DNA from: an uncultured Bacteroidota bacterium | GTDB lineage: Bacteria; Bacteroidota; Bacteroidia; Flavobacteriales_F; PHOS-HE28 | Length of the DNA: 37,129 bases | Direction of reading: 5' to 3' | Assembly: GCA_902825795.1 (NCBI GenBank) | Contig: CADECG010000019.1 | Span: 1 to 37,129 of the forward strand | In this document: piece after piece, positions 4,128 through 26,992 of the stretch | Numbering within the stretch: position 1 is the first letter of the stretch | How the letters are laid out: every line of letters begins with the position of its first letter | Notes under the pieces: generated by a model | Seen by the model: the letters and a program-made list of their open reading frames with translations, nothing else | Database searches by the model: none | What the model was told of the DNA's origin: nothing | Position numbers and translations under genes: made by a program

Positions 4128-4763
4128 ATGAAGCGGATCCATGTAGCCATAGTGGAAGATGATCGTGATTTCCGTGACTTGTTGCAGGCGGGGATCAAGG
4201 GCGATCCGCGCATTGTGGTCATCGCCACATTCCCTACAGGCGATCGGTTCCTAGCGGAACTGGAGCACCTTGATGCCGATGTGGTGGTGATGGACATCAA
4301 CATGCCCGGCACCAGTGGCATCGACTGCGTTTCGCAGGCCAAGCCGCGCAAACCGGCCATGCAATTCTTGATGAGCACCGTGTTCGAGAACCCCACGTAC
4401 ATCTTCCAAGCCCTGTGCGCCGGTGCAACCGGCTACTTGGTAAAAAGCGCACCGGCCGCAGACCTCATTGCCGCAGTACACGACATCCACTCCGGCGGTT
4501 CGCCGATGAGCCCGGCCATTGCACGAGCTGTTGTGGCTTCGTTCCAAGGTGCACCCGCCCCGAGCATGGAAGAGGCACTGCTCACCGCCAAGGAACGCGA
4601 AGTGGTGGATGGCTTGGCCAGCGGCCTTATGTACAAGGAGATCGCGCATAAGCTTGATGTCAATATCAGCACCGTGCGCACGCACGTCCGCAGCATTTAT
4701 GACAAGCTGCAGGTGCATTCACGAGGCGATGCGATCAAGCGGATGTACCCTGGTCGCGGTTAG
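4128..4763 (+). CDS. NarL/LuxR-family response regulator
   Basis: A 211-residue two-domain regulator. The receiver domain (1-125) has the acidic pair at Glu10-Asp11-Asp12, the phospho-acceptor Asp56 in VVVMDINMP, the switch Ser/Thr around MSTVFEN and Lys445-type equivalent in YLVKSAP. The C-terminal LuxR/GerE helix-turn-helix (about 148-205) has the typical LTAKEREVVDGLASGL and STVRTHVRSIYDKL helices. It follows its cognate kinase by 9 nt. Its last 4 bp overlap the stop of the convergent GEVED gene (stop codons TAG and TAA interlock at 4760-4763). By family it is a DNA-binding transcription factor activated by phosphotransfer from the kinase; target genes are unknown. The adjacent T9SS gene is a reasonable candidate by neighbourhood only. 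Confidence 0.95.
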   Translation: MKRIHVAIVEDDRDFRDLLQAGIKGDPRIVVIATFPTGDRFLAELEHLDADVVVMDINMPGTSGIDCVSQAKPRKPAMQFLMSTVFENPTYIFQALCAGATGYLVKSAPAADLIAAVHDIHSGGSPMSPAIARAVVASFQGAPAPSMEEALLTAKEREVVDGLASGLMYKEIAHKLDVNISTVRTHVRSIYDKLQVHSRGDAIKRMYPGRG

Positions 4764-6964
4764 CGCTTTTGCCAAACGAAGCGCTGCGCTGGCACACCGT
4801 TCAGCACGATCACGTAGACACCGTTCGCCGCATCTCTCATGGGTATGGTGGCAGTAGTCCCGGTGAACTGGCCGGACGCCATGGTTCGGCCGGTAGCCTC
4901 CAGCAGCGCATAGTGTACTGTCCCGACCTCCGTGCGGCGGATCAGTACAATGCCATCGCCCGGCATAGGTAGAATGCTCAGTGCTTGCGCAACGCTTTCG
5001 CCCACGCCCGTGTTCGCGTTGATGGAAACCGTGTAGTCTTCCGTTTCACCGTATGTCGCGTCCGCGCATGCATTCGGGATCGGTTGGAATCCGCATCGTA
5101 CACGCATTCGTTTGTCGCCAAGGACGGCAGCGGGCACGGTGAACGATATGGTCCCCGTTCCGTTCACGCCGTTTATGATGACCGACCCGATCGCCTCACC
5201 TGCATCATTCCAATCACCATCGGCATTGTAGTCGATCCACGCGTGGTAGCTATCGCCGGAATACTCGCCACCGGTGATCGACATGGTGTAGGACACGCCC
5301 ACGTTCAGGGTAGTGCCCAAGGTGGTGAAGTCAACATACGGTGCGGCGTGATCGCCACCGGATGAAATGTTGACCATGTCGCCCAGCTCAATGCCATCGA
5401 TATAGTCACCGCCACGCGTCCAATAGGGGCTGTACGGAACGCACACACCGGCCGGATCCTCAACCACCAATGGTATGTCCAGCAGTTCGCCGAACCCGAC
5501 ATCACCGCAGGCGCTGGCATTGCCATTGTTCGTGTCGTAACCCCGCACACGCAAGATGTGCTGGCCGGGTGGGCAGCTCGCTGGGATCAAGGCGACGATG
5601 CCAAGCGGCTCGAAAGCCATGGTGGCCGCAACTGAGCCGAGCGCTTCGCCCGCATCCGCGAAATCGCCATTGTCGTTCATGTCCAGCCATACATCGTATG
5701 TCTGTGGCAGGTAGGTTCCGGCAACGACATCCACGGCGATGTTCGTTCCGCGATCCACGCGATGCACCGTGTTGCCAAGTGTGTAGAATGGCCACTGCGT
5801 CGTGCCCGGATAGGTAGTGCCATCGAACGTTACGCTGGTAAAACCATCGCCTGCCTGCGTTCCTGCTGTCGGTGGCAGACAAGGAAATACGCCGTGCAAT
5901 ACGGCCAAGGTGAAGTCCTGCGTTTCGCCCCACTCAGCATAGCTACAGGCTGTTACTGCGGGATCATTGTACACACACCGTACGCGCAGGAGCGTATACC
6001 CGACTACTGCATCGGCAGGAACGGTGATGTTGAACGAGGTCGGCGAGAATATGCCAGCGATGGTGAATACACCCAGCTCCTCGCCACCATCATCGAAGTC
6101 GCCGTCCATGTTCCAATCCGCCCATGCACCGTAATGGTCGTTGGCGATGGCGCCGCTGGTGATGGTGATGGTCGCCGTCCCGTTCCTCTGCAACTGTGTT
6201 CCGTATCCCAACGAGGAGGAATAGGCGTGCGTGGGAACAGCGGATTGCGTCATGGAGAAACCGTTCATGGCAACACCTCCGATGAAGTCGTTGGCATATG
6301 GGCCGCGTGCCGTGTATGGGATGCAGGGCAGGCTGCCATTGATCAGGATCACATAGTCCTCTGCTTCGCCATAGCTCTGGTTACTGCAAGCATCAAATGC
6401 GGGATCGTTGTACACACAACGGATGCGCAAACCGGTATAGCCGGGCCGCGCATCGGCGGGTATGTAGATATCCGCCAGGATGTCCTCGAAAGCAGCTGTG
6501 GTCTGTGCGTTCAGCACTTCCTCGAACGCACCGAACTCGCCGTCCTGATCGAAATCTATCCACACCTTGTATTGCTCGAACGCAGCGCCGGGCGGGTCGT
6601 AGGGGCCCACAAGAATGGTCATCGGGTAGACGTTATCCCGATCCACTTGAGCGATGGCATCGCTGCCCTCGTAGCTGTAGTCCGTGAACCCGAGTGCCGT
6701 TTCGGTGGCAACGTAGGTGTTGGAGATGGTGCCGAAGTACACTCCGTCGATGCGGTCACCATCCGACGACCCTACCGTGTAGCCCGGGGTGCAGTACTGG
6801 TTCAAGTCCTCACGGTCTCCGGACCGGTCGAGGGGCCGCACGGGGTTGGAGGGTGAATGGATCGGCCCCATATCCCGCTGGCCAAAGACAGCAATTGCCG
6901 CGGGCAGGGCGAGAAGCAACCAGGTCGAGCGTATCGATGCAGACGTCATTGGCATATGGTTCAT
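4760..6964 (-). CDS. Secreted GEVED-repeat protein with T9SS C-terminal sorting domain
   Basis: About 734 residues. A signal peptide (IRSTWLLLALPAAIAVFG) ends near residue 28. Four GEVED repeats of about 150 residues follow. Each contains a calcium-loop-like DxNxDGD(F/W) segment (for example WADWNMDGDFDDGGEELG) and closes with the defining motif: YGEAEDYVI, WGETQDFTL, FGELLDIPL and YGETEDYTV. The last about 75 residues are a T9SS type-A sorting domain (LSILPMPGDG...GVYVIVLNG...FVWQKR). Starts at 6964, 6955 and 6949 are all possible; the frame is open to 7099, but that part lies across the inverted repeat and lacks a signal peptide at its start. GEVED domains are common in Bacteroidota surface and secreted proteins of poorly known function, probably adhesive or substrate-binding. 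It converges with the NarL regulator and diverges from the NHL-repeat gene. Confidence 0.93.
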   Translation of the reverse strand: MNHMPMTSASIRSTWLLLALPAAIAVFGQRDMGPIHSPSNPVRPLDRSGDREDLNQYCTPGYTVGSSDGDRIDGVYFGTISNTYVATETALGFTDYSYEGSDAIAQVDRDNVYPMTILVGPYDPPGAAFEQYKVWIDFDQDGEFGAFEEVLNAQTTAAFEDILADIYIPADARPGYTGLRIRCVYNDPAFDACSNQSYGEAEDYVILINGSLPCIPYTARGPYANDFIGGVAMNGFSMTQSAVPTHAYSSSLGYGTQLQRNGTATITITSGAIANDHYGAWADWNMDGDFDDGGEELGVFTIAGIFSPTSFNITVPADAVVGYTLLRVRCVYNDPAVTACSYAEWGETQDFTLAVLHGVFPCLPPTAGTQAGDGFTSVTFDGTTYPGTTQWPFYTLGNTVHRVDRGTNIAVDVVAGTYLPQTYDVWLDMNDNGDFADAGEALGSVAATMAFEPLGIVALIPASCPPGQHILRVRGYDTNNGNASACGDVGFGELLDIPLVVEDPAGVCVPYSPYWTRGGDYIDGIELGDMVNISSGGDHAAPYVDFTTLGTTLNVGVSYTMSITGGEYSGDSYHAWIDYNADGDWNDAGEAIGSVIINGVNGTGTISFTVPAAVLGDKRMRVRCGFQPIPNACADATYGETEDYTVSINANTGVGESVAQALSILPMPGDGIVLIRRTEVGTVHYALLEATGRTMASGQFTGTTATIPMRDAANGVYVIVLNGVPAQRFVWQKR

Positions 6965-6993
6965 GGTGCCCGCAAAGCAGTGCTGTTGCATTT

Positions 6994-7029
6994 CACGGGC
7001 GCCTACCATCAAGATGGTAGGCGCCCGTG
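6994..7029. repeat. 17-bp perfect inverted repeat in a divergent promoter region
   Basis: CACGGGCGCCTACCATC (6994-7010) pairs without mismatch with GATGGTAGGCGCCCGTG (7013-7029) around a 2-nt centre. It sits 30 nt upstream of the GEVED start and 51 nt upstream of the NHL start. No gene ends here, so it is not an ordinary terminator. It is either a large operator-like palindrome or a strong hairpin in one or both leaders. Confidence 0.9.
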
Positions 7030-7042
7030 CGACGATGCCATG

Positions 7043-7050
7043 AACGTTTG
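7043..7050 (+). promoter_or_regulatory. Putative -7 box of the NHL-repeat gene
   Basis: AACGTTTG differs from the TAnnTTTG consensus at its first base and lies 29 nt before the ATG at 7080. The inverted repeat ends 13 nt upstream, occupying the place of the -33 region. No TTG is found at normal spacing. Confidence 0.3.
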
Positions 7051-7079
7051 CACGGTCACAAACGCCTACACCACTAACG

Positions 7080-8432
7080 ATGCGCCACTGCTTCACCACA
7101 CTATTGTTCGCACACCTGATCCCAGCCGTCGCGCAGGACTACACGATCACCACCATTGCAGGCACTGGCTTGGCGGGCAGCACGGGCAATGGTGCACCAG
7201 CCGTGAACGCAACAGTGTACTATCCGCAAGGACTGGCCCTGGCGGCGGATGGCTCATTGTATTTCGGTCAGCCGTCCGATCATGTGCTGCGCAGGATCGA
7301 TGCCATATCGGGCAATATGGAGCACGTGGCCGGTATCGGTATGGTTGGGTACAGTGGCGACGGGGGGCCAGCCAACACTGCGGGCCTGGCCTATCCCTTC
7401 GGCCTTGCCTTCAACGCCAATGGTGATCTCTTCATCGCAGAACGGGATGCCCTTCGCATTCGGAAGGTCAGCGTTGTGGACGGTACCATCTCCACATTCG
7501 CTGGCACCATGAGCCCGGGGAACAACACCGAAATACCAGCGCTATCGGCGGCCCTTCACGCTCCGATGGGCGTCCGCTTCACTTCGGATGGCGACCTTAT
7601 ACTGAGCGTGATCGGCAATAACTACGTACGGTATATCGATGCGGATTCCTCGTTCTTGCATGCCTTCGCGGGAAACGGAACTGCTGCTTTCGCCGGGGAC
7701 AACGGTCCCGCACTTAACGCCTCCTTCAACCTTCCGTATGACATTGCCATCGCGACCAACGGCGACATCTACATCGCCGACATCAACAACGCGGCCATCC
7801 GGAAGGTGGATGCCCTATCGGGTGTGATCACCACCGTTGCAGGTATCGGCACAGGTCCTGCTGCATACAACGGCGACGGTATTCCCGCAACGACCGCAAC
7901 GCTCGGTCTTCCGCAGGGCATTGTGTTGGACAGCGCCGACAACCTGTACATCAGCGATGCCAATCATAGCCGTATCCGCAAAGTGGATGCTATAACGGGG
8001 TTGATCGCCACCATCGCTGGTACAGCAACATCCGGGTACGGCGCCGACAATGTGCTGGCCAGCACCGCAATGATCAATTCGCCGTGCGGGATCGTTATTG
8101 ATGCCCTAGGCAGGGTCATTTTCGCCGATGCTGCGAACCACCGCATTCGGATGTTGACCCCGGTGGATGACACAGGGGTTTCTGGGGCAACAAGTTCCGC
8201 AGCGCGCATCCTTGTTTATCCTTCGCCCGCAAATGATCGGGTCTGGGTGTCAACACGTGCGGGCGGAACGGGCGTGCAAGTGGAGATGCTCGACATGGTG
8301 GGTCGCACGGTGTCCCTTGCCACCATGCCCATGAGCGGCACAATATCCATTCCCGTGGACCACCTTGCAACGGGCCAGTATCATTTGCGTTTGGACGGGG
8401 GGTCTGCAGTTCCCGTACTGGTACAGCACTGA
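7080..8432 (+). CDS. Secreted NHL-repeat (beta-propeller) protein with T9SS sorting domain
   Basis: A 450-residue secreted protein. The signal peptide is short (MRHCFTTLLFAHLIPAVA, cut before QDYT). Residues about 20-365 contain five to six NHL-type repeats with the recurring pattern ITTIAGTG..GDGG.A..A.L..P.G(L/I)A.D..GNLYIADxxNxRIRKVD, expected to form a six-bladed propeller. The C-terminal about 75 residues are a T9SS sorting domain beginning ILVYPSPANDRVWV and ending in a beta-rich tail. In this family the propeller usually provides a binding surface; no catalytic residues can be pointed to. It diverges from the GEVED gene and converges with the first seven-repeat gene, 23 nt away. Confidence 0.92.
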   Translation: MRHCFTTLLFAHLIPAVAQDYTITTIAGTGLAGSTGNGAPAVNATVYYPQGLALAADGSLYFGQPSDHVLRRIDAISGNMEHVAGIGMVGYSGDGGPANTAGLAYPFGLAFNANGDLFIAERDALRIRKVSVVDGTISTFAGTMSPGNNTEIPALSAALHAPMGVRFTSDGDLILSVIGNNYVRYIDADSSFLHAFAGNGTAAFAGDNGPALNASFNLPYDIAIATNGDIYIADINNAAIRKVDALSGVITTVAGIGTGPAAYNGDGIPATTATLGLPQGIVLDSADNLYISDANHSRIRKVDAITGLIATIAGTATSGYGADNVLASTAMINSPCGIVIDALGRVIFADAANHRIRMLTPVDDTGVSGATSSAARILVYPSPANDRVWVSTRAGGTGVQVEMLDMVGRTVSLATMPMSGTISIPVDHLATGQYHLRLDGGSAVPVLVQH

Positions 8433-8455: not shown

Positions 8456-11400
8456 TCAGCGCTTCACCACCACCCTTGCAGCTTTCGGTGCCTCCCCTTC
8501 AACCCGCACCATCACAAGGTACAGTCCTTCCTTCCACTCGCGCGACAGGTCGAGCGGTTGTAGCGCGTTGAAGTAGTTCACTTGTTCGACATGCACGCGG
8601 CTACCGGTGGCGTCGAACACTTCGATCACCGCGCGATGGCCGAAGAGCGTTGGATCAGCGATAATGTTGAGCAAGTCGTTCGCTGGGTTCGGGTAGACCT
8701 GCAGTTCATCACCGGAATTTACGACCTCATCCAAAGTAGGCACGTCGCCGATGCTGGTGATGCAGCCGGGATCCGTTACGCGCGCCACCACAACATCATC
8801 CAGGAAGAAGTACGAGATGCTGCCCGGGCTATTGGCCGTGCAACCTTCTGCACGCGATCGGAAGTTGCCGATGGTGATATGGTCCACCGGCGACGAGGGG
8901 ATGACGATACCGCAGATGTTCGTCCACGCGCCTCCGCAGATGAACTCCTCCTCGAGCACATCCGGCTGCACCTCGATCGGCTCGAAGAAGCCCGAGAAGA
9001 GCGGTCCTTCGCTGAGCGCGGCGCCCAGACCGCTCACGCAATGCTGCGCTTCGCGACGATGCCCTGCCACATGGAACGAGACCAGGTACGGTTCGCCTGG
9101 AACCAATGCTTCGGAGAGCTGTGCTTGGGCGTACTCGAAGTACTCCGGATAACCGAGCAACGAGCCCGTGGCGAAGAAGCCGCCCATGCCTTTGCCGCTC
9201 CGTGACAAGGTCGTGGGCGTTTCCCCCACGAGGCCCTGAGGCCCGATCCCGGGGTTATCCATCTTGGCGCCTGCGTAGGCGCAACTGTGCAGCGCATCGG
9301 TACTGCCGCCCTGCATGCGGGGCCAACCGGGCGCGACCTGCGTACCATAACCAACGGTGGACTCCGCAACATGTATCGGGCAAGTTCCTGCATCTTGCTC
9401 GATGCCCGGATTCGGTACGAGCACCGGACCGAGGCACGTCTCTTCCACGCAGCTATTGCCCGTGAGCGATGGCGTGGAGAAAAGACCGATGCGTCCACTT
9501 GCGGCAACGGCGTTGCCCCAACTATACACACGTGCGTAATACGTCTGTCCGATGGTGAGCGACGGTAGCTCCAGGATGTTGCCATCGCACGCCACGCTGC
9601 TCAAGTTGCCCGGGGAACCGCTGAACAGTTCGATCGTCACATCGGCAGAGGCATCGCCAACCACCAGACGTGCGGGTGTGGCCGAAGCCACGAAGCTGAA
9701 CCAGATGTCGTCATCGGCGAAGTCGTCCACCTGGCAATCCGCTCCTGGCAAGGTCTGCGTGGCGTTGGCCGTACTGAAGTAAGCGGCGTAGTCCATGCCG
9801 TAGGGCAGCGGACGTGCGCCATCCGGATCATCGTTGTCGCTATCGGTATACCACGTTGCGAAGCCACAGAAACCGCTCTCTGCGTTCGTCCCTGTGTACA
9901 CGCGGTAGAGGTATTGCTTGCCGATCGTAAGCCCGCTGAGCGGCACCGCGCCATTCCCGCAGCCGATCTGGCTCGCGTTTAGTACCGCCGCATCGCTGGA
10001 TAGCGTGTCGAATACTTCAATGTAAAAGGAAGCTCCTGCAATGGGTTCCTCCTCGTAGAACTTGTTCCGTTGCAGCACGCGGACGGTATGCTGCGCAGCG
10101 CTCGCATTGAAGGTGAACCACGTATCGTCATCCGCCACTCCGCCAGGGCAGTTCGTTGCCATGCTCAGCGTTGCACCGTTGTTCCAGAACTGATCGGCCG
10201 GTTGTGCGAACGTGCTGCCGACCGGTGCGGGCAGGGGCGCACCGGGGTCATCGTTCACCGGTCGGTCGAAGAGCATAGGCCTGTAACTGGTCACTTGGCT
10301 GCACGACCAGCGGATGTGGTACGCTGTTCCCGGGACCAATCCGATGAAGTTGGCCTTCACTGAATTGTTGAAGCAGCCCAAGCTGGTGAGCGCACCGCAC
10401 GTGCCTTCGAACAGTTCAATGGTCTCAGCGGATGGAGAGCCCACATCCACCACCATGAACGCTGCGCTGGTATGCAGCGCCGTGAAGCGGTACCACACGT
10501 CCTTCTGGATGTTGCAGCCCCCCGTGCCGTTGGCCGCCGTTTGGCTTGAAACACGGGTTACATCCAATACGTCAGCTGGAGTACTGAAGGGCAGTTCGAT
10601 CGCCCCCGCACAATCATCGTTCACCAAGGGTGCGCGCACTGCGATCCGGAAAGCACACGGCGTCTGCGGATCCACGCGGATATAGTACTGCTGACCGGTC
10701 ACGAGCGTGGTGAGCAAGTAGGGTGATGTTATGTCGATGTCCTGGCCAATGCTGGTGAGCGATCCGCAGGCGCCACTTTCTACATAGATCTGGGTTGGAG
10801 CGTCGCCAGCCGTTGCGTAGCCTTCGATCAGCGCGCGCGGACCAGTGGCCGTGAAGCGGTACCACGCCTCCTCCGAACCCGCGTAAGTATGCCCAGCGGT
10901 GAAGTCGACAGGGTCGCTCTGCACTTGCAGATCGATCGCATCCGCGCACGCTGCGTTCGGCTGCGGCGCGAAAACATACACGCGCATGGTGGTGCGATCC
11001 ATGACCGAGGTTCCCACCTTCAGGTAATACGTGCTACCTGCTGTCAGTCCAGTGAAGGTCACTTCCGGGTCATTGTCTCCCGCTGATGTGCAGATCAATG
11101 CGCCACAGGGTCCGCTGTAGAGTGAATGCTGCACTGTGCTGGGCGCATCGGTGGCCACGACCACTTCCGTTCCGGGCGCCGTGAAACTGAGCCACACATC
11201 GTGCGCCGTGGTGGCGCAAGGCACGGTGCTACCGCTGGCATGCTTGGTGGAGACGGTCACCACATGCGGGTCTTCACCCGCCATGGTTACGGCGATCGGC
11301 AATGCACCTGCGCACTCATCGTTCACGGCTGGCGCGAACACGTCCGCCGCCACACGCAGGGTTATCGCTGCATCGTCGCTCTCGCTATGCGCGCGGATAT

Positions 11401-12184
11401 AGTACTGCGTACCCGGTGTGAGCCCAATAGCCACAGGCGCGTTGCACGCCAAGCTGGTGAGGCTGCCACAGGTGCCGCTGAACCACTCGTACACATTCGC
11501 CTGCACCGCGTCGGAAAGCGAAGTGGTGCCCAGGATGTGCTTGTTCTCCGTGGCGGTGAAACGATACCACACGTCATCATCCGCACCGACCGTGCACGCT
11601 ACCTGCGACTGCGTGCCACCCAACGAGCTGATCTCCGTGGAAGGCCATGCCACTGTGGTCTGTGGCACCACGGATAGCGCGATGGCCCCAGCGCAATCGT
11701 CGTTCACCGGCGCAGAGACAACGCCGATCCAGACCTGGCAATAGTCATCGTTGGCAGTGCAGAAGCCAAGGTCTGACATCTGCACACGAAAATGGTAGGT
11801 GGCGCCAACGGTGAGGCCGGTCAACGCGGGCATCGCTCCGTTGGGCGGGAAGCAGCCGATGCTGCTGAGGTTTCCACAACCGCCACTGAACACCTCCATC
11901 CTCGCATCGTCGGTGCCTTGGCCATCCGTGCGTATCCAATGCTTGGTGGCCGTGGCCGTGAAGCTGAACCAAGCGGTCGTAGCTTGGGCATTGCCGCTGC
12001 ATGCGGTGATCGGGTCCGGAACCGCATTCGCGAACCAACGGCCATCCACCGGAAGGAGCGCTAACTGCAGATTACTGGGCGCCACCGGTAGCACGATCGC
12101 TGTGCTGCAGGAGGAGTTGGTCCCGGTCTGGGCAAGGCCGAAGACGGTCAGGAACAATGATGCGAGAAGGAGCGAACAGCGCAT
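8456..12184 (-). CDS. Giant T9SS surface protein with seven PPC-like repeats (tandem copy A)
   Basis: About 1242 residues. The signal peptide is MRCSLLLASLFLTVFGLAQ. Seven consecutive repeats of about 120-130 residues follow, each starting (V/P)ND(D/E)C-like, with a central (D)DxWYxFTA strand, an SGxCGxLTS turn and a closing GLTxGxxYYIRV strand. This resembles the pre-peptidase C-terminal (PPC) beta-sandwich. Repeats 6 and 7 lack the first Cys. A domain of about 210 residues starting CLGPVLVPNPGIEQ follows, resembling the NPSFE-type beta-sandwich common before Bacteroidota sorting signals. The end is a type-A T9SS domain with LQVYPNPANDLLNI. The frame is open to 12235, but ATG 12184 puts the signal peptide at the start. 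Copy B lies 88 nt upstream. Likely a surface adhesin or matrix protein; no enzymatic motif is seen. Confidence 0.92.
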   Translation of the reverse strand: MRCSLLLASLFLTVFGLAQTGTNSSCSTAIVLPVAPSNLQLALLPVDGRWFANAVPDPITACSGNAQATTAWFSFTATATKHWIRTDGQGTDDARMEVFSGGCGNLSSIGCFPPNGAMPALTGLTVGATYHFRVQMSDLGFCTANDDYCQVWIGVVSAPVNDDCAGAIALSVVPQTTVAWPSTEISSLGGTQSQVACTVGADDDVWYRFTATENKHILGTTSLSDAVQANVYEWFSGTCGSLTSLACNAPVAIGLTPGTQYYIRAHSESDDAAITLRVAADVFAPAVNDECAGALPIAVTMAGEDPHVVTVSTKHASGSTVPCATTAHDVWLSFTAPGTEVVVATDAPSTVQHSLYSGPCGALICTSAGDNDPEVTFTGLTAGSTYYLKVGTSVMDRTTMRVYVFAPQPNAACADAIDLQVQSDPVDFTAGHTYAGSEEAWYRFTATGPRALIEGYATAGDAPTQIYVESGACGSLTSIGQDIDITSPYLLTTLVTGQQYYIRVDPQTPCAFRIAVRAPLVNDDCAGAIELPFSTPADVLDVTRVSSQTAANGTGGCNIQKDVWYRFTALHTSAAFMVVDVGSPSAETIELFEGTCGALTSLGCFNNSVKANFIGLVPGTAYHIRWSCSQVTSYRPMLFDRPVNDDPGAPLPAPVGSTFAQPADQFWNNGATLSMATNCPGGVADDDTWFTFNASAAQHTVRVLQRNKFYEEEPIAGASFYIEVFDTLSSDAAVLNASQIGCGNGAVPLSGLTIGKQYLYRVYTGTNAESGFCGFATWYTDSDNDDPDGARPLPYGMDYAAYFSTANATQTLPGADCQVDDFADDDIWFSFVASATPARLVVGDASADVTIELFSGSPGNLSSVACDGNILELPSLTIGQTYYARVYSWGNAVAASGRIGLFSTPSLTGNSCVEETCLGPVLVPNPGIEQDAGTCPIHVAESTVGYGTQVAPGWPRMQGGSTDALHSCAYAGAKMDNPGIGPQGLVGETPTTLSRSGKGMGGFFATGSLLGYPEYFEYAQAQLSEALVPGEPYLVSFHVAGHRREAQHCVSGLGAALSEGPLFSGFFEPIEVQPDVLEEEFICGGAWTNICGIVIPSSPVDHITIGNFRSRAEGCTANSPGSISYFFLDDVVVARVTDPGCITSIGDVPTLDEVVNSGDELQVYPNPANDLLNIIADPTLFGHRAVIEVFDATGSRVHVEQVNYFNALQPLDLSREWKEGLYLVMVRVEGEAPKAARVVVKR

Positions 12185-12205
12185 AGCAACTGACTTTGTT
12201 GATGC

Positions 12206-12273
12206 CAAGGGAGCACGAATGCCTGCCCGGAACAAGTGGGATCGATCGAACGCGGGGAATGGCGATCGAGCGT
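12206..12273 (-). promoter_or_regulatory. Promoter region of copy A with two 11-bp direct repeats
   Basis: Direct repeats CGATCGAACGC (12243-12253) and CGATCGAGCGT (12263-12273) have a 20-nt period. On the minus strand, a TTG (12235-12233), a 19-nt spacer and CTCCCTTG (12213-12206) follow, a plausible degenerate -33/-7 pair ending 21 nt before the ATG. The whole block is conserved upstream of copy B. The geometry fits a LytTR-type activator site next to -33; binding is inference. The distal repeat touches the stop codon of copy B. Confidence 0.5.
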
Positions 12274-15200
12274 CAACGCTTCACCACTACCCGCGCCGCC
12301 TTCGGTGCCTGCCCTTCCACGCGCACCATCACCAGGTACAAGCCTTCCTTCCATTCGCGCGACAGGTCGAGCGGTTGCAGTGCACTGAAATAGTTCACCT
12401 GTTCCGCATGCACGCGGCTACCTGTGGCGTCGAACACTTCGATCACGGCGCGCTGGCCGAAGAGCGAAGCATCGGCGACGATGTTGAGCAAGTCGTTCGC
12501 GGGATTCGGGTACACGCGCAACGCATCGCCGCTGTCAGCAGCATTCTCGTCCAGCGGCGGCAAGTCACCCAAACCGGTAATGCAACCGGGATCGGTAACG
12601 CGCGCCACCACCACATCATCGTAGAAATGGTACGCAGTGGAGAAGCCGTTGATCGGGCCTTCGTGGGTGTATGACGCACGGTCGGGGAAGAAGCTGCCGA
12701 CGGTGATGTTGTCATAGGCGGCGTCGGGTACGACGATCCCGCAGATGTTCGTCCATGCGCCCTTCTCCACCATATCGTAGGTGACCACTTGCGGTTCGGC
12801 GTCGAAGGGGGCGTAGGTGCCTTCGACCATGGGCCCGACGCTCAGCAATGCACCCAAGCCGTTCACCTTCACATCGGAGCCTTCGGAGAGCACAGCGTTG
12901 AAGGAGACCAGATAGGGTTCACCGGGAATAAGCGGCTCGCTGAGCGGTGCCTGGATGTACTCCCTGTAACCTTCGACCTCCATGGCGAGGGCACCGGCCA
13001 TGCCTTTGCCGGAACGCGGCAGGTTCCGGTTCAAGGTGACCACGATGATCTGCGCAGGCGCTTCTCCATTGATGTTATGGGGCATGCAACTGCTGTATCC
13101 GTCGGACGACCCGCCGTGCAAGCGGGGCCAGCCGGGTGCCAAGGGAATTCCCAGGCCTGCGACATCCATGATGTTCGGCACACCGGCTTGGCAGTACGCG
13201 CCTTGTTCGATCGAAGGATTCGCGAGCAGGACCGGCCCCAAGCAGGCTTCGTCCACACAATCGTTCACGGTGAGCGAGGGTGTCACGAACAGCCCGAGGC
13301 GTCCTTCCACTGGGGTTGCATTGCGCCAACTGTACAGGCGCACGTAATACACTTGACCGCTTGTGAGCGCGGGCAACACCAAGATGTTGTCACTGCAAGC
13401 CATGCTAGTCAAGTTGCCGGGTGCTCCGCTGAAGAGTTCCAACGTGAGGTCGGCCGTGCCATGGCCCGCCACGATCCGGGCTGGCTGGTTGGTGGCTGTG
13501 AAGCGGAACCAGATGTCGTCATCCGCCGTGTCGTCGGTACTGCAATCAGCGCCAGGGAGGCTTTGCGTGGCGCCGCTCGTAGTGAAGTAGTGGGAGTAGG
13601 CATCGCCGTAGGTGAGTGCCACGGCACCGATCGCTTCATCGTTGCTCTGGTCCTGTACCCATGTGCTGAACATGGCCAGCGCGTAGGGAGCGGGGCCAGG
13701 CGTGTACACCCGGTACCAATAGTCGCGGCCGATCTCCAGTCCGGTGAGGCTTCGTGGTGCGATGCCGCAACTGATCATGTGCGCCTCCAAGGTGTCAGTG
13801 ATGGTGGAGAGCGTATCGTACACCTCCACGTTCATCTGGGACAAGGTTGGTTCCGTGAACAGCGTATTGCGCTGCAATGCATGCACGGTATGCGCAGTTG
13901 CGGTGGCCGTGAAGCGGTACCAGGTATCGTCGTCGGGGTCGGCTTGGCTGCAGAACTGCGGATAGCTCAGCGTGGCACCGTAGCTGCTGCCGTTGTGCAA
14001 CGGACCGGTGCTGGAACTGCCGAAAGGTGCCACCAATGCATCGGTGATCTCGTCATTGGGCACCTGCGCGAGGTGTGGCACGTAGTCCACGAACGCGAAG
14101 GTGCTTTGGGCGAAACGCACGAAGTAGGTGACGCCCGGTGTAAGGCCGGTGAACCGGTTCCGGAAGTTGGTGACGCAGGATAAGCTGGTTAAGTTCCCGC
14201 ACGTACCGCTGAACAGCTCGGTGTATGCCGTCACGTTCGATCCCTCGTAAGCCGCAACGAAGGTGGCCTCATCATCCGTGGCGGTAAAGGTGTACCACAG
14301 GTCGGGGACGTTCTGTGCGCAAGAGCCGGTGTTGATGGCGGCATTGCGGGTGTTCTCCTTGCGCTGACCGGCGATCTGATGGGGAGAAAGCACCTGCAAC
14401 GGCAACGCACCTGAGCAATCGTCGTTCACCATGCCCACGGTGATCCCGATGCGGAAGGCGGTGGTGTTGTTGCTGTTGGAATACACGCGGACGAAGTAGT
14501 CCGTTCCAGGCGTGAGCCCGCTCACCATCAACGGACTGAATGCGGCATTGTCCTCGTCGCAAATGATGCTGGTGAGGGATCCGCATGATCCCGAGAGCAC
14601 TTGGGAGAAAAGGCTCGATGTCTGAAGGGTCGGCTCGAGATGGATGTAATGCTGTGCCGCTGTGGCGGTGAAGGAGTACCACACATCGCGCGGTTGTGTG
14701 TTCTGGCAGGCCTGTGCACCGGTCGCTGCGCCGCCGGTATGCCCATGCACGAAGCCCTCGCCACTTTGATAGGGCTGCACGTCCAGCCCGACGGCATCGC
14801 TGCACTCGTCGTTCGCTGGTTGCGCCACCACCCGGATGGTGCTCTCGCGCAGGGTGTTGTTCTCACCGAGCTTGAGGAAATACGACGTGCCCGGTGTAAG
14901 GCCGGTAACGTTCCACGGCGTGTTCAGAGCATCTTCATCGTAGCAGGTAAGCGATCCGCAGGTGCCACTATAGATCGCAGCGGACTCATTGTTCGTGCTA
15001 GTGATCGTTATCCCTGCGGTGGGGGCGACGAAGCTGTACCACACATCGCTGTTCTGCACATCGCATGGTACCGTGCTGCTCGTGCCGGTGCGCGTGGTGA
15101 TCGTTACTTCTTCCGGTTGTTCGCCGGTGAGTGCAACTACGATGGGAATGGCCCCGCTGCATTCATCATTGCTGGCGCTCTCGCACACATCGCCCAGCAG

Positions 15201-16037
15201 GCGCAGCGTGTGGTCGGTGCCTTCGCTGTGCAGGCGGATGTGGTACTCCTGGCCGGGTGTAAGTCCCGTGGCCTTGGTGGTGTTGCACGCCACGCTGGTG
15301 AGCGCACCACAAGAGCCACTGAACCATTGGATCACAGGTTCCACATCATAGAGCAGGTCATACACGAAGTGTTGCGTTGTCGCCGTTGCGGTGAATCGGT
15401 ACCACACATCATCATCGGAATCGCCGGGGGCTACCGAGCATCCGGGTTGCGATGCGGTGGCACCGATGGTCGCCATATCCGTCATCGGGCGCACGACGTG
15501 CGCGGCGGTCAGTGAGGTGAGCTGCGTGGCGCTCCCACATTCGTCGTTGGGTGCAGCGCTCACCACCGCCAAGCCCATAACGCAATTCCCGTTCGACGCA
15601 TCGCAGCCCAGGGAGCTGTTCATCGCCCGGATGAAATAGACCGACCCGATCGTGAGGCCGGTGAGCGCCTGATAAGGTTGCCCCTGCAAGGTGTTGAGAC
15701 CATCGAAGCATTGCAAGGAGATGAGCGAACCACATGTTCCGCCAAGCACTTCGATGATACGGGAGTCCGTCTCGGGCCCTTCGGTGCGCACCCAATGCGT
15801 GGTGGCTACAGCGGTGAACTTGTACCAGCCAGTGCGCCGGTTGAGGGTGCCGCTGCACGTGGTGGTGGGCACTGGTGGTAGACTGGGGAACATCACACCG
15901 TTCACGTAGGTGAACGACGCCAGGTTGGTGCTGGACACCGGTATCTCGAAGGCGCGTTCGCACGTGTAGTTGTCCGGCGTTTGGGAGGAGGCCACAACCG
16001 GTAGAGCGGCGAGCAGGAAGAGAAGCGAAGGGCGCAT
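12273..16037 (-). CDS. Giant T9SS surface protein with seven PPC-like repeats (tandem copy B)
   Basis: About 1254 residues, with the same architecture as copy A. The signal peptide is MRPSLLFLLAALPVVASSQ. Seven PPC-like beta-sandwich repeats begin at YTCERAFEIPV, PNDECGSATQL, SNDECSGAIPI, ANDECSDAVGL, VNDDCSGALPL, PNDEITDALVA and SNDEAIGAVAL. The NPSIEQ-type domain follows (CLGPVLLANPSIEQ), then a T9SS sorting domain with LRVYPNPANDLLNI. The last about 75 codons are nearly identical to those of copy A at DNA level, whereas the N-terminal repeats have diverged strongly. The start at 16037 is chosen for the signal peptide; the frame is open to 16088. It lies directly downstream of the LytTR regulator and its kinase, in the same direction. 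Role likely adhesion or surface layer; not determined. Confidence 0.92.
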   Translation of the reverse strand: MRPSLLFLLAALPVVASSQTPDNYTCERAFEIPVSSTNLASFTYVNGVMFPSLPPVPTTTCSGTLNRRTGWYKFTAVATTHWVRTEGPETDSRIIEVLGGTCGSLISLQCFDGLNTLQGQPYQALTGLTIGSVYFIRAMNSSLGCDASNGNCVMGLAVVSAAPNDECGSATQLTSLTAAHVVRPMTDMATIGATASQPGCSVAPGDSDDDVWYRFTATATTQHFVYDLLYDVEPVIQWFSGSCGALTSVACNTTKATGLTPGQEYHIRLHSEGTDHTLRLLGDVCESASNDECSGAIPIVVALTGEQPEEVTITTRTGTSSTVPCDVQNSDVWYSFVAPTAGITITSTNNESAAIYSGTCGSLTCYDEDALNTPWNVTGLTPGTSYFLKLGENNTLRESTIRVVAQPANDECSDAVGLDVQPYQSGEGFVHGHTGGAATGAQACQNTQPRDVWYSFTATAAQHYIHLEPTLQTSSLFSQVLSGSCGSLTSIICDEDNAAFSPLMVSGLTPGTDYFVRVYSNSNNTTAFRIGITVGMVNDDCSGALPLQVLSPHQIAGQRKENTRNAAINTGSCAQNVPDLWYTFTATDDEATFVAAYEGSNVTAYTELFSGTCGNLTSLSCVTNFRNRFTGLTPGVTYFVRFAQSTFAFVDYVPHLAQVPNDEITDALVAPFGSSSTGPLHNGSSYGATLSYPQFCSQADPDDDTWYRFTATATAHTVHALQRNTLFTEPTLSQMNVEVYDTLSTITDTLEAHMISCGIAPRSLTGLEIGRDYWYRVYTPGPAPYALAMFSTWVQDQSNDEAIGAVALTYGDAYSHYFTTSGATQSLPGADCSTDDTADDDIWFRFTATNQPARIVAGHGTADLTLELFSGAPGNLTSMACSDNILVLPALTSGQVYYVRLYSWRNATPVEGRLGLFVTPSLTVNDCVDEACLGPVLLANPSIEQGAYCQAGVPNIMDVAGLGIPLAPGWPRLHGGSSDGYSSCMPHNINGEAPAQIIVVTLNRNLPRSGKGMAGALAMEVEGYREYIQAPLSEPLIPGEPYLVSFNAVLSEGSDVKVNGLGALLSVGPMVEGTYAPFDAEPQVVTYDMVEKGAWTNICGIVVPDAAYDNITVGSFFPDRASYTHEGPINGFSTAYHFYDDVVVARVTDPGCITGLGDLPPLDENAADSGDALRVYPNPANDLLNIVADASLFGQRAVIEVFDATGSRVHAEQVNYFSALQPLDLSREWKEGLYLVMVRVEGQAPKAARVVVKR

Positions 16038-16058
16038 GGCAACGGACTTTGGTGATGC

Positions 16059-16126
16059 CAAGGGAACCTGAACGCCCGCCCTGAACAAGGCGGATCGATC
16101 GAACGCGGGGATTGATGATCGAGCGT
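16059..16126 (-). promoter_or_regulatory. Promoter region of copy B with two 11-bp direct repeats
   Basis: CGATCGAACGC (16096-16106) and TGATCGAGCGT (16116-16126) have a 20-nt period. The minus strand continues with TTG (16088-16086), a 19-nt spacer and TTCCCTTG (16066-16059), 21 nt before the ATG at 16037. Spacing of every element equals that upstream of copy A. The LytTR regulator gene ends about 50 bp further upstream. Confidence 0.5.
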
Positions 16127-16134
16127 AAAGAGAT

Positions 16135-18915: not shown

Positions 18916-18920
18916 CGGGG

Positions 18921-18928
18921 TGAAGATC
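18921..18928 (-). promoter_or_regulatory. Putative -7 box of the cassette 1 kinase
   Basis: The minus strand carries GATCTTCA 5 nt before the ATG at 18915. The paralogous kinase gene has GACCTTCA at the corresponding place (28841-28848). Both are variants of the TAYCTTCG boxes in this window. Confidence 0.35.
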
Positions 18929-18987
18929 GGTCGCTTCCGACAAGCAGCGACGTCGAACGTCGATCTACCGCGACCATTTCAACGGGA

Positions 18988-22435: not shown

Positions 22436-25400
22436 TCATCGGCTCACCACCACCCGCGCCGACATCGGCTCACGCCCGTCCACCTGCACCATCATCAAGT
22501 ACAGTCCTTCGCGCAGCTCCGCCGGAAGTTCAAGCACGACATTGCTCACCAGCGACGGCACCACGCGCGCATGCACTTGCTTACCAGTCGCATCGAACAG
22601 CTCGAGCACCGCCGCTTCACCGATCATCCCCTCTTCGATGCTGATGTTCAACCGATCGTTCGCGGGGTTCGGGAATACGCGCAGACCTTCACCAGCAACA
22701 GCTGAAGAAGTCGCGGGATCCACTTCCTCCACATCCACTGTCACGCACAGCGCGTCGATGATCTCAGCCACGGTCACATCGTCGAAGTAGTAGTAGGCGG
22801 TGCCTGCCGTGCACTCCACTTCGTCCTGCGGCTTCAACACGCCGATGGTGATGTGCTCGTACGGTTGATCGGCGATGATCTGGCCGCAGATGGTCTGCCA
22901 TTTGTTGGTGACGTTGATCGGCCCGCCCTGCCATTCGATCTGCATGGGCGGATTGAACGGCGCAAGGGCCACCGCGATCGGCTCCAGGCTCAGGTGCGCA
23001 CCGAAACCATCACAGCCGCTGATGTTCCCGCGCAGCCGCACGTTGAACGCGATGAGGTAGGGCACGCCGGGCACGAGGGGAGCGCTCAGCCTACCGCCCA
23101 GCGCTTCATGGTAATCGGACGATTGGTGGGCGAACGCACCACCCACACCACCACCGCTCCGCGGACGCACATCGGAGGCCAGGTCAGGTGTGGCACCATC
23201 CAGGTCCTCGGGCAGATGCTCAGCATCCGCAAAGTCGTTGCCGGAGGAGTAGTTGTCCGCAGTGGCCACCGCCGTATGCCAGTGCGGAGCCAGTCCGTGG
23301 CCGATGGGTACGGGAGGTCCGGTCGTTTGGAACATCGTGGCATTGAGCTCGCCCGGTTCGATGCCGGGGTTCATCACCAGGTTCGGCCCCAGGCAATCCA
23401 CGTCGGCACAGGCGCTTTCCATGGGATGTGGCGTATGGAAAATGCCGAGCTTGCCACGCAGGTCGCTGGTGTTTCGGCTGTACACCCGCAGGTGATAGGT
23501 CTGCCCATCGACCATTCCGCTGGGGAGCACGAGGTAGTTGTAGCCGCACGCGATCGACGTCAGACTTCCCACAGGACCCTGGAAGAGTTCGAGCACCGCG
23601 TTGTTGTCCAGGAAGTGGCAGGTGATCGTCGCGGCGTCGCCATCGTGGGTGAACTTGAACCAGACATCGTCGTCCGGGCTGTCGCCCATCACGCCGCAGC
23701 CGTTGCTGGGCAGACTCTGCGTGGCGTTGTTCGTGTTGAACTCCACCGCGTACACATCGCGTTCGGAGATCAGCACAGCACCGCTCGCTTCATCGCTTGT
23801 GCCACTGCCGCCCACCCACGGGTGGAAGGTGCGGATGACGTGTGGGCTGGTGGTGCTGGAGAACATGCGCACCATCACCGTATCGCCGACAGCGAGCCCT
23901 GTGACGTTGATGCCGTTGGTGCTGGTGCCGCAGACCAGCTCATTGGCCAGCAGCGTATCGGGTATGGTAGAGAAACCGCTGAAGGTCTCGATGCGCAATG
24001 TTGTTGCGGTCTCTTCGTACTGGATGCTGCCCACGTCAGCGCCTACCGTGTGCGTTGCGTTGGTGGCCACGAAGTAGAACCATACATCATTCTGGGGAGT
24101 GCCGGTGCACGCCACCTGCGAGAAGGACATCGATGCGCCATAGTTCGAAAAGGGCTTCATCGGATGCGCGAAGGCATCGCCAGCAGGCATGAGCTGGATC
24201 GCGCCGGCCATGTCATCGTTCGCCGGCGGTGCATAGAACTGATGGTTGAAGAGATGGGTGTCGCCGCCGGCGTTGGTGTAGATGCGCACGAAATAGGTCT
24301 CGCCGGGAACAAGGCCCGTGTAGTTGGTCTGCCGTTCGTCCGTGCAAAGGATGCTGGTGAGCGACGCGCAGGTGCCCGAGAAGATCTCACTCGAGAGGGG
24401 ATAGTCGACGTAGTGGGGTTGCAGGACCAAGGCTGCAGTGGGCGCCGTGGCCGTGAAGGTGTACCACAGGTCCATGGTACCGAGCGCATTGCCACATTGG
24501 GGAAGCGATGATGTTGCAAAACGGAACTCGGTGCGTTGCGCGGCGTCGAAGTCATCCAAGGTCATCGGTAGCAGCGGCAGCGCACCGGCGCATTCATCGT
24601 TCGACAGCGTCTTTGTCAAGGCCACCCGCAGCGGCTTCGGCGATGAGCCGTTCGTCCACAGGCGGAAGGTGTAGTTGGTGCCGATCACAAGGCTGTCCAA
24701 CACGGTACCGAAATTGAAGTCCACCGCGCCGCACTCCATGGCCGTGAGCGATCCGCAAGCACCAGCGTTCAGTTCATACCGCAATGCCGTCCCATCCGCG
24801 ATCGCGCTCAACAGAATGGTCGGTGCCGTAGCGGTGAAGGTGAACCACACATCATCATCAGTTCCGGACACGCAAGCCGTGGCGCTTTCGGTGGCGCCAT
24901 AAGTAACGGCATGCGTGTACACCAGCGGGTCGTCCTCGTTCTGCACAGGAAGGCTGATCGCATCCACACAATCATCGTTGGTGGTGAAGCCCCGCGTGCG
25001 GAGGCCCTCCGTGGTTCCACTGCCCGCCTTCAGCTTGTAGGTGGTTCCGGGCACGAGCGCATCCAGCACCAAGGGGATGTACACGCCTTCCGAAACGATG
25101 CCATCCACGCAGTTCTCATCGAAGAGCGCCAGGCTGAACGAGCCCACTTTCTCCACCACGAGGTTGGTGGAGGGTGCGGTGAACGAATACCACACGTCCT
25201 CCAGCGTCGTGAAGTTGTTGACAGCCGAGCTCGTCGCCGTTTCGAGGTCGAAGCCATAGACCTGTCCTGGCTCCGGACCTTCGTTCACGGAAATGGTGAT
25301 CGCGTTCGCGCACTCGTCGTTCGCCGGTGGACTGCCGATGCCCGCGCGGAACCATACGTAGGACTGAACCATATTGCTCTCTGAGTATACCCGCAGGAAG

Positions 25401-26167
25401 ATCTCTTGGCCGACCGTCAGGCCCGTGAGTTCTGCGTCCAGCACCCAGTTGTCCTCGCACCACAAGCTGGTCAGACTTCCACAGGTGCCAGAGTACGCTT
25501 CCACTACAACGCCGATATCCGTGACGATCACCGCCGTGTGCTTGGGGGCCGTGGCCGTGAAATGCAACCACACGTCATCGTCGCTGGCGGCGGCCACGCC
25601 GCAACCGGGCAATGACTGCGTAGCGCCAACGGTGGTAAACTGCTGTCCAAGACTTATTGGGCCGATGTTCGGAGAAGGAATAAGCTCCATGGCTCCGGCG
25701 CACTCGTCGTTCGTGATCGGATGCACCACGCCCCAACGCCGCGTGTTGCCACCGCCCGGGTATGTCTGGAAACTGCGGAAATAATAGGTGTTGCCCACCA
25801 CCAAGCCCGTGAGTGGCAACGCACCATTGCTGATCGGCCCCGCCGTGCAACCGATGCTGGTGAGCGTACCACATGTCCCGCTGAACGCCTCGATGCACAC
25901 GGCGTCCACCGAACGGCCATCATGCACGATCGTGAGCGTGCTCGCGGTCGCCACGAAGCTGAACCACACATCACTGTAACCGTTGCCGCTGCACGCCGCC
26001 GGGCTGATGGCGTTGGGTTCATCGCCGGTGTTGCTCAAGACCCACTCGTCCGGCACCGCGCCGCTGCTCACCGCAATGGGATAGGCGTTGGCGCAATCGG
26101 GGTTGTTGGCGTTCTGGGCGAAAGCGATCGTTGGGGCCAGAGCGAGGATAAAAACAGCTGTGCGCAT
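22436..26167 (-). CDS. Giant T9SS surface protein with seven PPC-like repeats (copy C, cassette 2)
   Basis: About 1243 residues. The signal peptide is MRTAVFILALAPTIAFAQ. Seven PPC-like repeats begin at NPDCANAYPIAV, TNDECAGAMELI, ANDECANAITIS, TNDDCVDAISLP, SNDECAGALPLL, ANDDMAGAIQLM and TSDEASGAVLIS. Each has the (D)DVW(F/Y)xFTA and YYxRxYS strands, and repeats 6 and 7 again lack the first Cys. The NPGIE-type domain (CLGPNLVMNPGIEPGE) and a T9SS sorting domain (LRVFPNPANDRLNI) follow. It has the same order and number of domains as copies A and B but lower identity. The frame is open to 26200; ATG 26167 is chosen for the signal peptide. A CAAGGGAA box lies 21 nt upstream as in copies A and B (26188-26195). 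It follows the second LytTR regulator in the same direction with an 87-nt gap. Confidence 0.92.
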   Translation of the reverse strand: MRTAVFILALAPTIAFAQNANNPDCANAYPIAVSSGAVPDEWVLSNTGDEPNAISPAACSGNGYSDVWFSFVATASTLTIVHDGRSVDAVCIEAFSGTCGTLTSIGCTAGPISNGALPLTGLVVGNTYYFRSFQTYPGGGNTRRWGVVHPITNDECAGAMELIPSPNIGPISLGQQFTTVGATQSLPGCGVAAASDDDVWLHFTATAPKHTAVIVTDIGVVVEAYSGTCGSLTSLWCEDNWVLDAELTGLTVGQEIFLRVYSESNMVQSYVWFRAGIGSPPANDECANAITISVNEGPEPGQVYGFDLETATSSAVNNFTTLEDVWYSFTAPSTNLVVEKVGSFSLALFDENCVDGIVSEGVYIPLVLDALVPGTTYKLKAGSGTTEGLRTRGFTTNDDCVDAISLPVQNEDDPLVYTHAVTYGATESATACVSGTDDDVWFTFTATAPTILLSAIADGTALRYELNAGACGSLTAMECGAVDFNFGTVLDSLVIGTNYTFRLWTNGSSPKPLRVALTKTLSNDECAGALPLLPMTLDDFDAAQRTEFRFATSSLPQCGNALGTMDLWYTFTATAPTAALVLQPHYVDYPLSSEIFSGTCASLTSILCTDERQTNYTGLVPGETYFVRIYTNAGGDTHLFNHQFYAPPANDDMAGAIQLMPAGDAFAHPMKPFSNYGASMSFSQVACTGTPQNDVWFYFVATNATHTVGADVGSIQYEETATTLRIETFSGFSTIPDTLLANELVCGTSTNGINVTGLAVGDTVMVRMFSSTTSPHVIRTFHPWVGGSGTSDEASGAVLISERDVYAVEFNTNNATQSLPSNGCGVMGDSPDDDVWFKFTHDGDAATITCHFLDNNAVLELFQGPVGSLTSIACGYNYLVLPSGMVDGQTYHLRVYSRNTSDLRGKLGIFHTPHPMESACADVDCLGPNLVMNPGIEPGELNATMFQTTGPPVPIGHGLAPHWHTAVATADNYSSGNDFADAEHLPEDLDGATPDLASDVRPRSGGGVGGAFAHQSSDYHEALGGRLSAPLVPGVPYLIAFNVRLRGNISGCDGFGAHLSLEPIAVALAPFNPPMQIEWQGGPINVTNKWQTICGQIIADQPYEHITIGVLKPQDEVECTAGTAYYYFDDVTVAEIIDALCVTVDVEEVDPATSSAVAGEGLRVFPNPANDRLNISIEEGMIGEAAVLELFDATGKQVHARVVPSLVSNVVLELPAELREGLYLMMVQVDGREPMSARVVVSR

Positions 26168-26195: not shown

Positions 26196-26254
26196 GGCAA
26201 GGCTGGGCGAACGGAAAGAAAGACCGAGGCTACGGGGCGGGATCGAGGGAACGG

Positions 26255-26992
26255 TCAGCCGCGCAGTGCGAGCGTCACCTCCTCCAACCTCCTCCTGCTG
26301 ATCTCCACACGCGTGCCATTGCGCAGGCGCACGCGCCCTTCGCCATCGATGCCGTCCACATGGCGGCGGTTCACGAGCGCGCTCTTGTGCACGCGGATGA
26401 AGCCGAGCGGCGAAAGCATCTCGTCGTAGTCCTTCAGCGTGCGCGCGGATACAAAGCGACGCTCATCGGCGAGGTGCAGCGCGGTATAGTTGTCGTCGGC
26501 CTGGCACCAGGCGATGTCGGCTGGTGCAACGGCGTGTGTGCGATCGCCGTGCGTGAGGGTGAGCTTCAGGGCCTGCTCGTCGCGCTGCGCGAGGTTGTGG
26601 AGGAACTGCTGCTGCACATCGGTGGAAGCGTGGCCCTTGCGCTCCACATGCCGATCGATCGCCGCGCGCAGTTCATCGGCTTGCACGGGCTTGAGCAGAT
26701 AATCCAGCGCACTGAAGCGGATGGCTTGTATGGCGTAGTGCTGGTGACTTGTCGTGAAGATGACATCGAAGTCCCAGCGACCGATGCGCTTCAGCAGCTC
26801 GAAGCCATCGCCGCCGGGCATCTCCACATCCAGGAAGACGAGTTGCGGTTGGGTGTCCGCGATCAAGCGCGCAGCCTCGTCGATGTTCTTCGCTTCGCCG
26901 AGCACATGGACTTCCGGTGCTACATCGCGCAGGCGTCCCCGCAGGAATTCGCGGGCGCCCGCTTCGTCATCCACCTGCACCGCCGTGATCAT
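26255..26992 (-). CDS. LytTR-family response regulator (cassette 2)
   Basis: A 245-residue paralogue of the regulator at 16179-16910. The receiver domain has the phospho-acceptor Asp55 in LVFLDVEMPGGDG and the conserved ALDYLLKPV. The LytTR domain (about 140-243) has IAWCQADDNYTALHL, TLKDYDEMLSPLGFIRVHKSALVNRRHV and RVRLRNGTRVEISRRR. It lies 53 nt downstream of its kinase and 87 nt upstream of the third giant T9SS gene. A TAACTTGC -7-like element (26998-27005) precedes it. By family it is a transcription factor phosphorylated by the adjacent LytS-like kinase; the T9SS gene is the obvious candidate target, but no repeat pair as clear as that of cassette 1 was found. Confidence 0.95.
   Translation of the reverse strand: MITAVQVDDEAGAREFLRGRLRDVAPEVHVLGEAKNIDEAARLIADTQPQLVFLDVEMPGGDGFELLKRIGRWDFDVIFTTSHQHYAIQAIRFSALDYLLKPVQADELRAAIDRHVERKGHASTDVQQQFLHNLAQRDEQALKLTLTHGDRTHAVAPADIAWCQADDNYTALHLADERRFVSARTLKDYDEMLSPLGFIRVHKSALVNRRHVDGIDGEGRVRLRNGTRVEISRRRLEEVTLALRG

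Follow-up and report, generated by a model that had tools for sequence, protein, structure and literature searches.

Published LytTR operators consist of two direct repeats of 9 to 11 nt separated by a spacer of 11 to 13 nt (PMC4847170), and they typically lie 10 nt upstream of the -35 element, as do sites predicted in Bacteroides, where the promoter is of the type proper to the phylum (PMC6193735). Here we analyze pairs of direct repeats in a 37,129-nt stretch of DNA from an uncultured Bacteroidota bacterium (contig CADECG010000019.1, referred to as the window), where they stand before two tandem genes, copies A and B, that encode cargo proteins of the type IX secretion system (T9SS) and that follow a gene for a LytTR response regulator. 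Our comparisons make it highly likely that each repeat pair serves the adjoining regulator as its operator and that the regulator activates the weak promoter of the cargo gene. The kind of switch is known; its T9SS cargo setting and the family-wide co-divergence described below are new. No description of LytTR control of T9SS cargo was found in the literature searched, the coverage of which was incomplete.

Among described systems, the LytTR Regulatory Systems (LRS; HdrRM, BrsRM and their relatives) are alike in having 9-nt direct repeats, 11 to 13 nt apart, that precede the -35 element by about 10 nt (PMC6193735). Their half-sites ACCGCTTAT and ACCACTTAC (PMC6193735) resemble boxes of paralogous cassettes studied here (ACCGCTTGC in L163 and ACCACTTGC in L194); the half-site of the family, ACCGYT, resembles ACCGCTTAT, and the variant at copies A and B keeps only the core. 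LRS differ in that they combine a regulator with an inhibitory membrane protein and regulate themselves (PMC6193735), whereas the present locus combines a kinase and a response regulator with a downstream T9SS cargo gene. Since the partner is a TPR-containing histidine kinase and the regulator carries a receiver domain, the locus is not an LRS, although its operator would work like the LRS operators. The predicted LRS-like operators of Bacteroides (Table 3 in PMC6193735), which read TCCGGTATTCA-11bp-ACCGGAAATCA, then 11 bp, then TGTA-19bp-TATCTTTG, come from the same phylum and have the same promoter type, with a -7 element TAnnTTTG and direct repeats 11 nt upstream, but their period is 22 nt rather than 20, their box sequence is another one and their regulator is embedded in the membrane (PMC6193735). 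At the P2/P3 operators of AgrA from S. aureus a dimer occupies two direct repeats before a weak promoter, with the center near -60 (PMC4227749) compared with a predicted center of about -58 here. AgrA differs in its half-site sequence, its quorum-sensing context and its sigma-70 type promoter. Regulation of the T9SS is mostly known through PorXY-SigP acting on the machine, and PorX is not known to be a LytTR protein; in our locus individual cargo genes seem to be under two-component switches of their own. The PorXY-SigP system of Porphyromonas gingivalis is alike as a two-component system linked to the T9SS, but it works through an extracytoplasmic function (ECF) sigma factor cascade on the genes of the secretion machine and not through direct repeats at single cargo genes (PMC4800418).

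All genes of the cassette are on the minus strand, in the order TPR histidine kinase (18915-16945, recognized by Pfam His_kinase), LytTR regulator (16910-16179), copy B (16037-12273) and copy A (12184-8456). An earlier note on this DNA had called the adjoining regulator a LytTR protein and its domains agree, with both Response_reg and LytTR above the Pfam cut-offs (66 bits for LytTR, cut-off 22.6) and a weak sequence match to the AgrA LytTR structures. Its FhRhHRS motif, FLRTHRS, aligns with AgrA FFRCHNS, and an ASRR segment was matched, by eye only, to the region of AgrA R233. The same note had reported direct repeats with a 20-nt period at a constant distance from both start codons, and we recovered them: CGATCGAACGC occurs at 12243-12253 and 16096-16106, CGATCGAGCGT at 12263-12273 and TGATCGAGCGT at 16116-16126, the start-to-start spacing is 20 in both pairs, and the distance to the ATG is identical for the minus-strand starts at 12184 and 16037. 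The repeats are better described as boxes of 12 nt than of 11 nt, and in the sense of the genes they read ACGCTCGATC(A/G) followed 20 nt on by GCGTTCGATCGA. At copy A the distal box (ACGCTCGATCGC, minus strand, 12262-12273) lies right against the copy B stop codon, and the proximal box (GCGTTCGATCGA, minus strand) occupies 12242-12253; at copy B the distal box (ACGCTCGATCAT, 16115-16126) and the proximal box (GCGTTCGATCGA, 16095-16106) are on the same strand. Allowing no mismatch, YGATCGARCGY is found five times in the window, four of these being the boxes of A and B, and GATCGARCG is found six times where 1.2 are expected (as many in 0 of 100 shuffles). The two pairs are part of a 109-nt stretch (12168-12276 and 16021-16129) that is an 83% identical duplicate, found as a block just twice in the genome; they are thus copies of each other and were counted once, not as independent evidence. 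Further equivalent pairs, beyond those of the earlier note, lie in a second cassette of the window, cassette C (26224-26254, with a 19-nt spacing), and on another contig of the home genome. A search for autoregulation found no repeat pair with this geometry before the kinase; a single stretch resembling the half-site (CGTTCGA) lies upstream of the kinase start (within 18916-18970) without a pair or promoter spacing, and may reflect weak autoregulation or chance.

The comparison set comprised 45 genomes of the genus, five of which (home, G040, G007, G031 and G020) have this regulator at an identity of at least 82%. In the four others the composite site before the target gene reads CGYTCGATC-N11-CGTTCGATCGATC-N3-CTTG-N23-CTTGG. 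The element precedes the target gene in 5/5 genomes with the regulator and, in G040, each of five tandem copies. The alignment of orthologous cassettes, which the earlier note had proposed as a check, shows the boxes conserved far above both the flanks and the synonymous sites. Mean pairwise identity is 96% for the proximal box (10 of 12 columns invariant), 83% for the distal box, 100% for CTTG at -33, 96% for CTTGG at -7 and 77% for the 8-nt gap, compared with 46% for the 5' flank, 59% for the promoter spacer and 55% for the leader; when distinct species are compared, the LytTR gene is 52-62% identical at its fourfold sites. The boxes and promoter elements of copy B are supported by the same conservation. 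In G007 the gene order is LytTR, kinase, target, and in G031 and G020 an insertion keeps LytTR and target about 1.2 kb apart; in all three the element is still at the target, and it therefore follows the target gene and not the end of the regulator gene. As a separate observation on G040 (L041, G040:C37:1-19500), at least five tandem cargo copies each have their own operator, and copies 2 and 4, which alternate with the others, show no difference over 3817 nt; this could come from recent amplification or from an assembly effect.

The promoter stands at fixed columns after the proximal box, with CTT at columns 6-8, where it is enriched across paralogues, and TTNG at columns 34-37. TTNG occupies these columns in 20/23 cassettes, compared with 0.4 expected from other offsets, and the information content of the promoter columns is 1.6-2.0 bits against a 99.9% control value of 1.0. 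The Bacteroidota sigma-A promoter has a -7 element TAnnTTTG (-12 to -5) combined with a -33 element TTG or TTTG (PMC7366714, PMC9723704), and the promoter of the family agrees with this pattern; the -7 box of A and B, TCCCTTGG, is a weak match. On the minus strand, the -33 element CTTG is at 12233-12236 for copy A and 16086-16089 for copy B, and the -7 element is at 12205-12212 and 16058-16065, respectively. Alignment with relatives sets the -7 box one base downstream of the register given in the earlier note. If the -7 box covers -12 to -5, as in flavobacteria (PMC9723704), transcription is predicted to start near 12200 (A) and 16053 (B), with the boxes centered near -68 and -48 and their midpoint at about -58.

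The length, spacing and position of the repeats are those of published LytTR operators: taken as 9-nt boxes, CGYTCGATC and CGTTCGATC have 11 nt between them and a period of 20, and the 9-nt box ends at position 8 of the 12-nt box with TTG starting 10 nt on, within the 8-11 nt upstream of -35/-33. The box sequences are a separate matter. The LytTR half-site consensus is [TA][AC][CA]GTTN[AG][TG], to which the paralogous boxes, ACCGYTNNC, fit well; the A and B boxes match at the core CGTTCG only, and the literature offers no common consensus. For the LRS the half-site is ACCrCTTAy (PMC6193735).

Other kinase-LytTR cassettes of the genus, with regulators 48-62% identical, have an equivalent pair (e.g. 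CCGCTCGCTCGG or CCGCTGGATCA), usually from the LytTR stop codon onward. A motif-free lag scan of 37 non-redundant 80-nt regions after LytTR genes gave a best 12-nt repeat match at lag 20 that averages 7.73, compared with 5.83 in shuffled regions (z 9.8; runner-up lag z 4.0), and no such peak was seen in 164 control regions after other genes (5.62 at lag 20). The ATG follows the proximal box by 54-60 nt in 26/32 loci, and 22 downstream proteins have a PNP-type T9SS tail by pattern, the family models having been applied to the proteins of A, B, C and G031 only. One clade of cassettes (L140, L141, L142, L143 and cassette C) has a 19-nt period instead of 20, which leaves 10 nt between 9-nt boxes, just outside the published 11-13 nt. 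In cassette C, on the minus strand, the distal box (CCGTTCCCTCGA, 26243-26254) comes directly after the stop codon of the LytTR gene (26255-26992, identified by profile and sequence match and 62% identical to the first regulator); the proximal box (CCGTAGCCTCGG, 26224-26235) is 19 nt on. CTTT and TTGG occupy the positions after it that are usual in the family, and a T9SS cargo gene comes next (22436-26167, family models).

Operator sequence also follows the regulator. The greater the distance between two LytTR DNA-binding domains, the greater that between their operators tends to be (r 0.65-0.70), and the correlation holds when receiver distance is partialled out (0.48-0.59, with 0/1000 permutations as high), whereas operator against receiver distance with the DNA-binding domain partialled out gives -0.14 to 0.11 and the promoter spacer, as a control, a partial correlation of 0.11-0.18. 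This comparison supports the view that the operator tracks the DNA-binding domain and not the receiver. Residues 165, 169 and 199 of the LytTR protein differ between operator classes and are candidate specificity positions; the class-based comparison mis-sorted L155 and G020 by a single box and is a pointer only. Residue 199 is inside the FhRhHRS motif, beside residues known to touch DNA in AgrA.

Searches of the genus genomes by pattern found the mismatch-free box pair confined to these cassettes, and the pattern CGTTCGATCGATC-N3-CTTG-N23-CTTGG, when up to one mismatch is allowed, confined to the 5/45 genomes that have the regulator. The chance of exactly this set of genomes at random placement is 1 in C(45,5), or 8e-7, a value that overstates the case because site and regulator are physically linked, so that weight falls on an unlinked site on contig C207 of the home genome (L199:1767-1854). 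This third operator-promoter of the A/B type reads CACCCGATC-N11-CGTTCGATCGATC-CCG-CTTG-N23-CTTGG with spacing identical to A and B, and it precedes an open reading frame of 460 amino acids that begins with a signal-peptide-like sequence and encodes a putative secreted protein in which NCBIfam recognized no sorting tail or family; the membership of C207 in the home genome rests on binning. Other box-pair matches with one mismatch (L045, L048 and L061) were rejected, as they lie at crossings of long open frames and have no promoter part, which C207 alone kept. Upstream of the C207 site, a short-period repeat array (L199:397-999) translates in one frame as repeats of WDDHSRRHD.

In the mechanism that we propose, the neighboring kinase would phosphorylate and so activate molecules of the LytTR regulator, two of which would occupy one box each, both on one face of the helix, with the midpoint of the boxes near -58. 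The bound dimer would then recruit RNA polymerase to the weak sigma-A type -33/-7 promoter, which would drive the large T9SS-exported protein immediately downstream, and since each tandem copy has its own operator-promoter the same regulator could control every copy. The poor match of the A and B -7 box to TAnnTTTG is as expected for an activated promoter; from this and from the position of the boxes we infer activation by a phosphorylated dimer. Binding, occupancy by a dimer, a positive and not a negative effect on transcription, the place where transcription starts and the sensing of a signal are all predictions from sequence.

The earlier proposal that the repeats are LytTR operators is thus supported by conservation in orthologues, by boxes that stay with the target, by the paralogous pairs, by co-divergence with the DNA-binding domain and by resemblance to published sites. 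Several points weigh against it: the agreement of the A/B half-site CGTTCGATC with the classical LytTR consensus is limited to the core; the boxes of the paralogues were chosen with a soft motif, although the lag test involved no motif choice; a clear pair was not seen in several cassettes (e.g. L148, L149, L157 and L167), perhaps because no target follows; at 17 more distant LytTR loci outside the genus the lag scan showed no more than a weak bump at 21; and operators have their phylogeny in common with the regulators, which makes the Mantel-type test supportive but not proof. Alternatively, the boxes might have no function and simply remain from a recent event, tandem duplication or gene conversion, that copied the cargo gene together with its leader; in favor of this, the leaders are 83% identical as one block and the sorting tails are 86% identical. 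We regard this as very improbable, and largely refuted by the pattern in orthologues, where the boxes are retained in G007, G031 and G020 and conservation centers on the boxes and promoter elements instead of extending over the block, while the unlinked site shares the geometry with a different spacer.

In an equally improbable reading, the repeats belong to the gene before them and act at its 3' end as a terminator or RNA element. The distal box does abut the preceding stop codon in most cassettes and CGATCG is self-complementary, but RNA folding is no better than in shuffles (z 0.54, 0.15 and -0.17), neither a terminator-like site at the repeats nor an Rfam match was found, and upon reordering or insertion the element goes with the target and not with LytTR. 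Less remote, though still unlikely, is a real operator at which LytTR represses, or which another regulator, such as a paralogous LytTR through cross-talk, binds physiologically. The sign cannot be read from sequence, and several relatives of the regulator (five at E<=1e-45), with half-sites that are related too, are encoded in the home genome; against this, the boxes are placed like an activator site, a short way upstream of a weak -33/-7 promoter, the operator sequence tracks the DNA-binding domain of the adjoining regulator, and the A/B site is found only where the A/B regulator occurs. Activation by the adjoining LytTR regulator is the reading that we retain.

The cassettes may further form insulated sets of kinase, LytTR, operator and cargo whose regulators and operators diverge together once duplicated, each two-component system commanding its own surface protein, with the cargo body swapped and operator, promoter and sorting tail kept as a modular differential display; we hold this tentatively, at somewhat under an even chance. 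With its dozens of regulator-operator pairs at varied distances, the family is a natural data set for LytTR site choice where there is no common consensus. It also provides exact bases and residues for testing, and it allows target prediction, as for contig C207, in uncultured Flavobacteriales.

In both cargo proteins GBD_T9SS_assoc domains and the sorting tail of T9SS type A cargo exceed the curated cut-offs, and copy B also has Por_Secre_tail (family models); TIGR04183, the C-terminal sorting domain of T9SS type A cargo, is above its cut-off in copies A and B and in the cargo of cassette C. Copies A and B are 49% identical overall, with 46% in the body, 86% in the last 90 residues that form the sorting tail and 83% in the leader DNA, so that within 8456-16037 the ends are conserved and the middle has diverged. 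In G031 and G020 (L043, about 4600-6436, and L044) this operator-promoter, together with a sorting tail of 72% identity, is found on an unrelated SBBP-repeat body of 585 amino acids, which replaces the 1250-amino acid GBD protein; the cargo body was thus exchanged with both ends kept. Finally, a minus-strand gene at 4760-7099 of the window has partial similarity, below the model cut-off, to a thermolysin-like M4 peptidase model.

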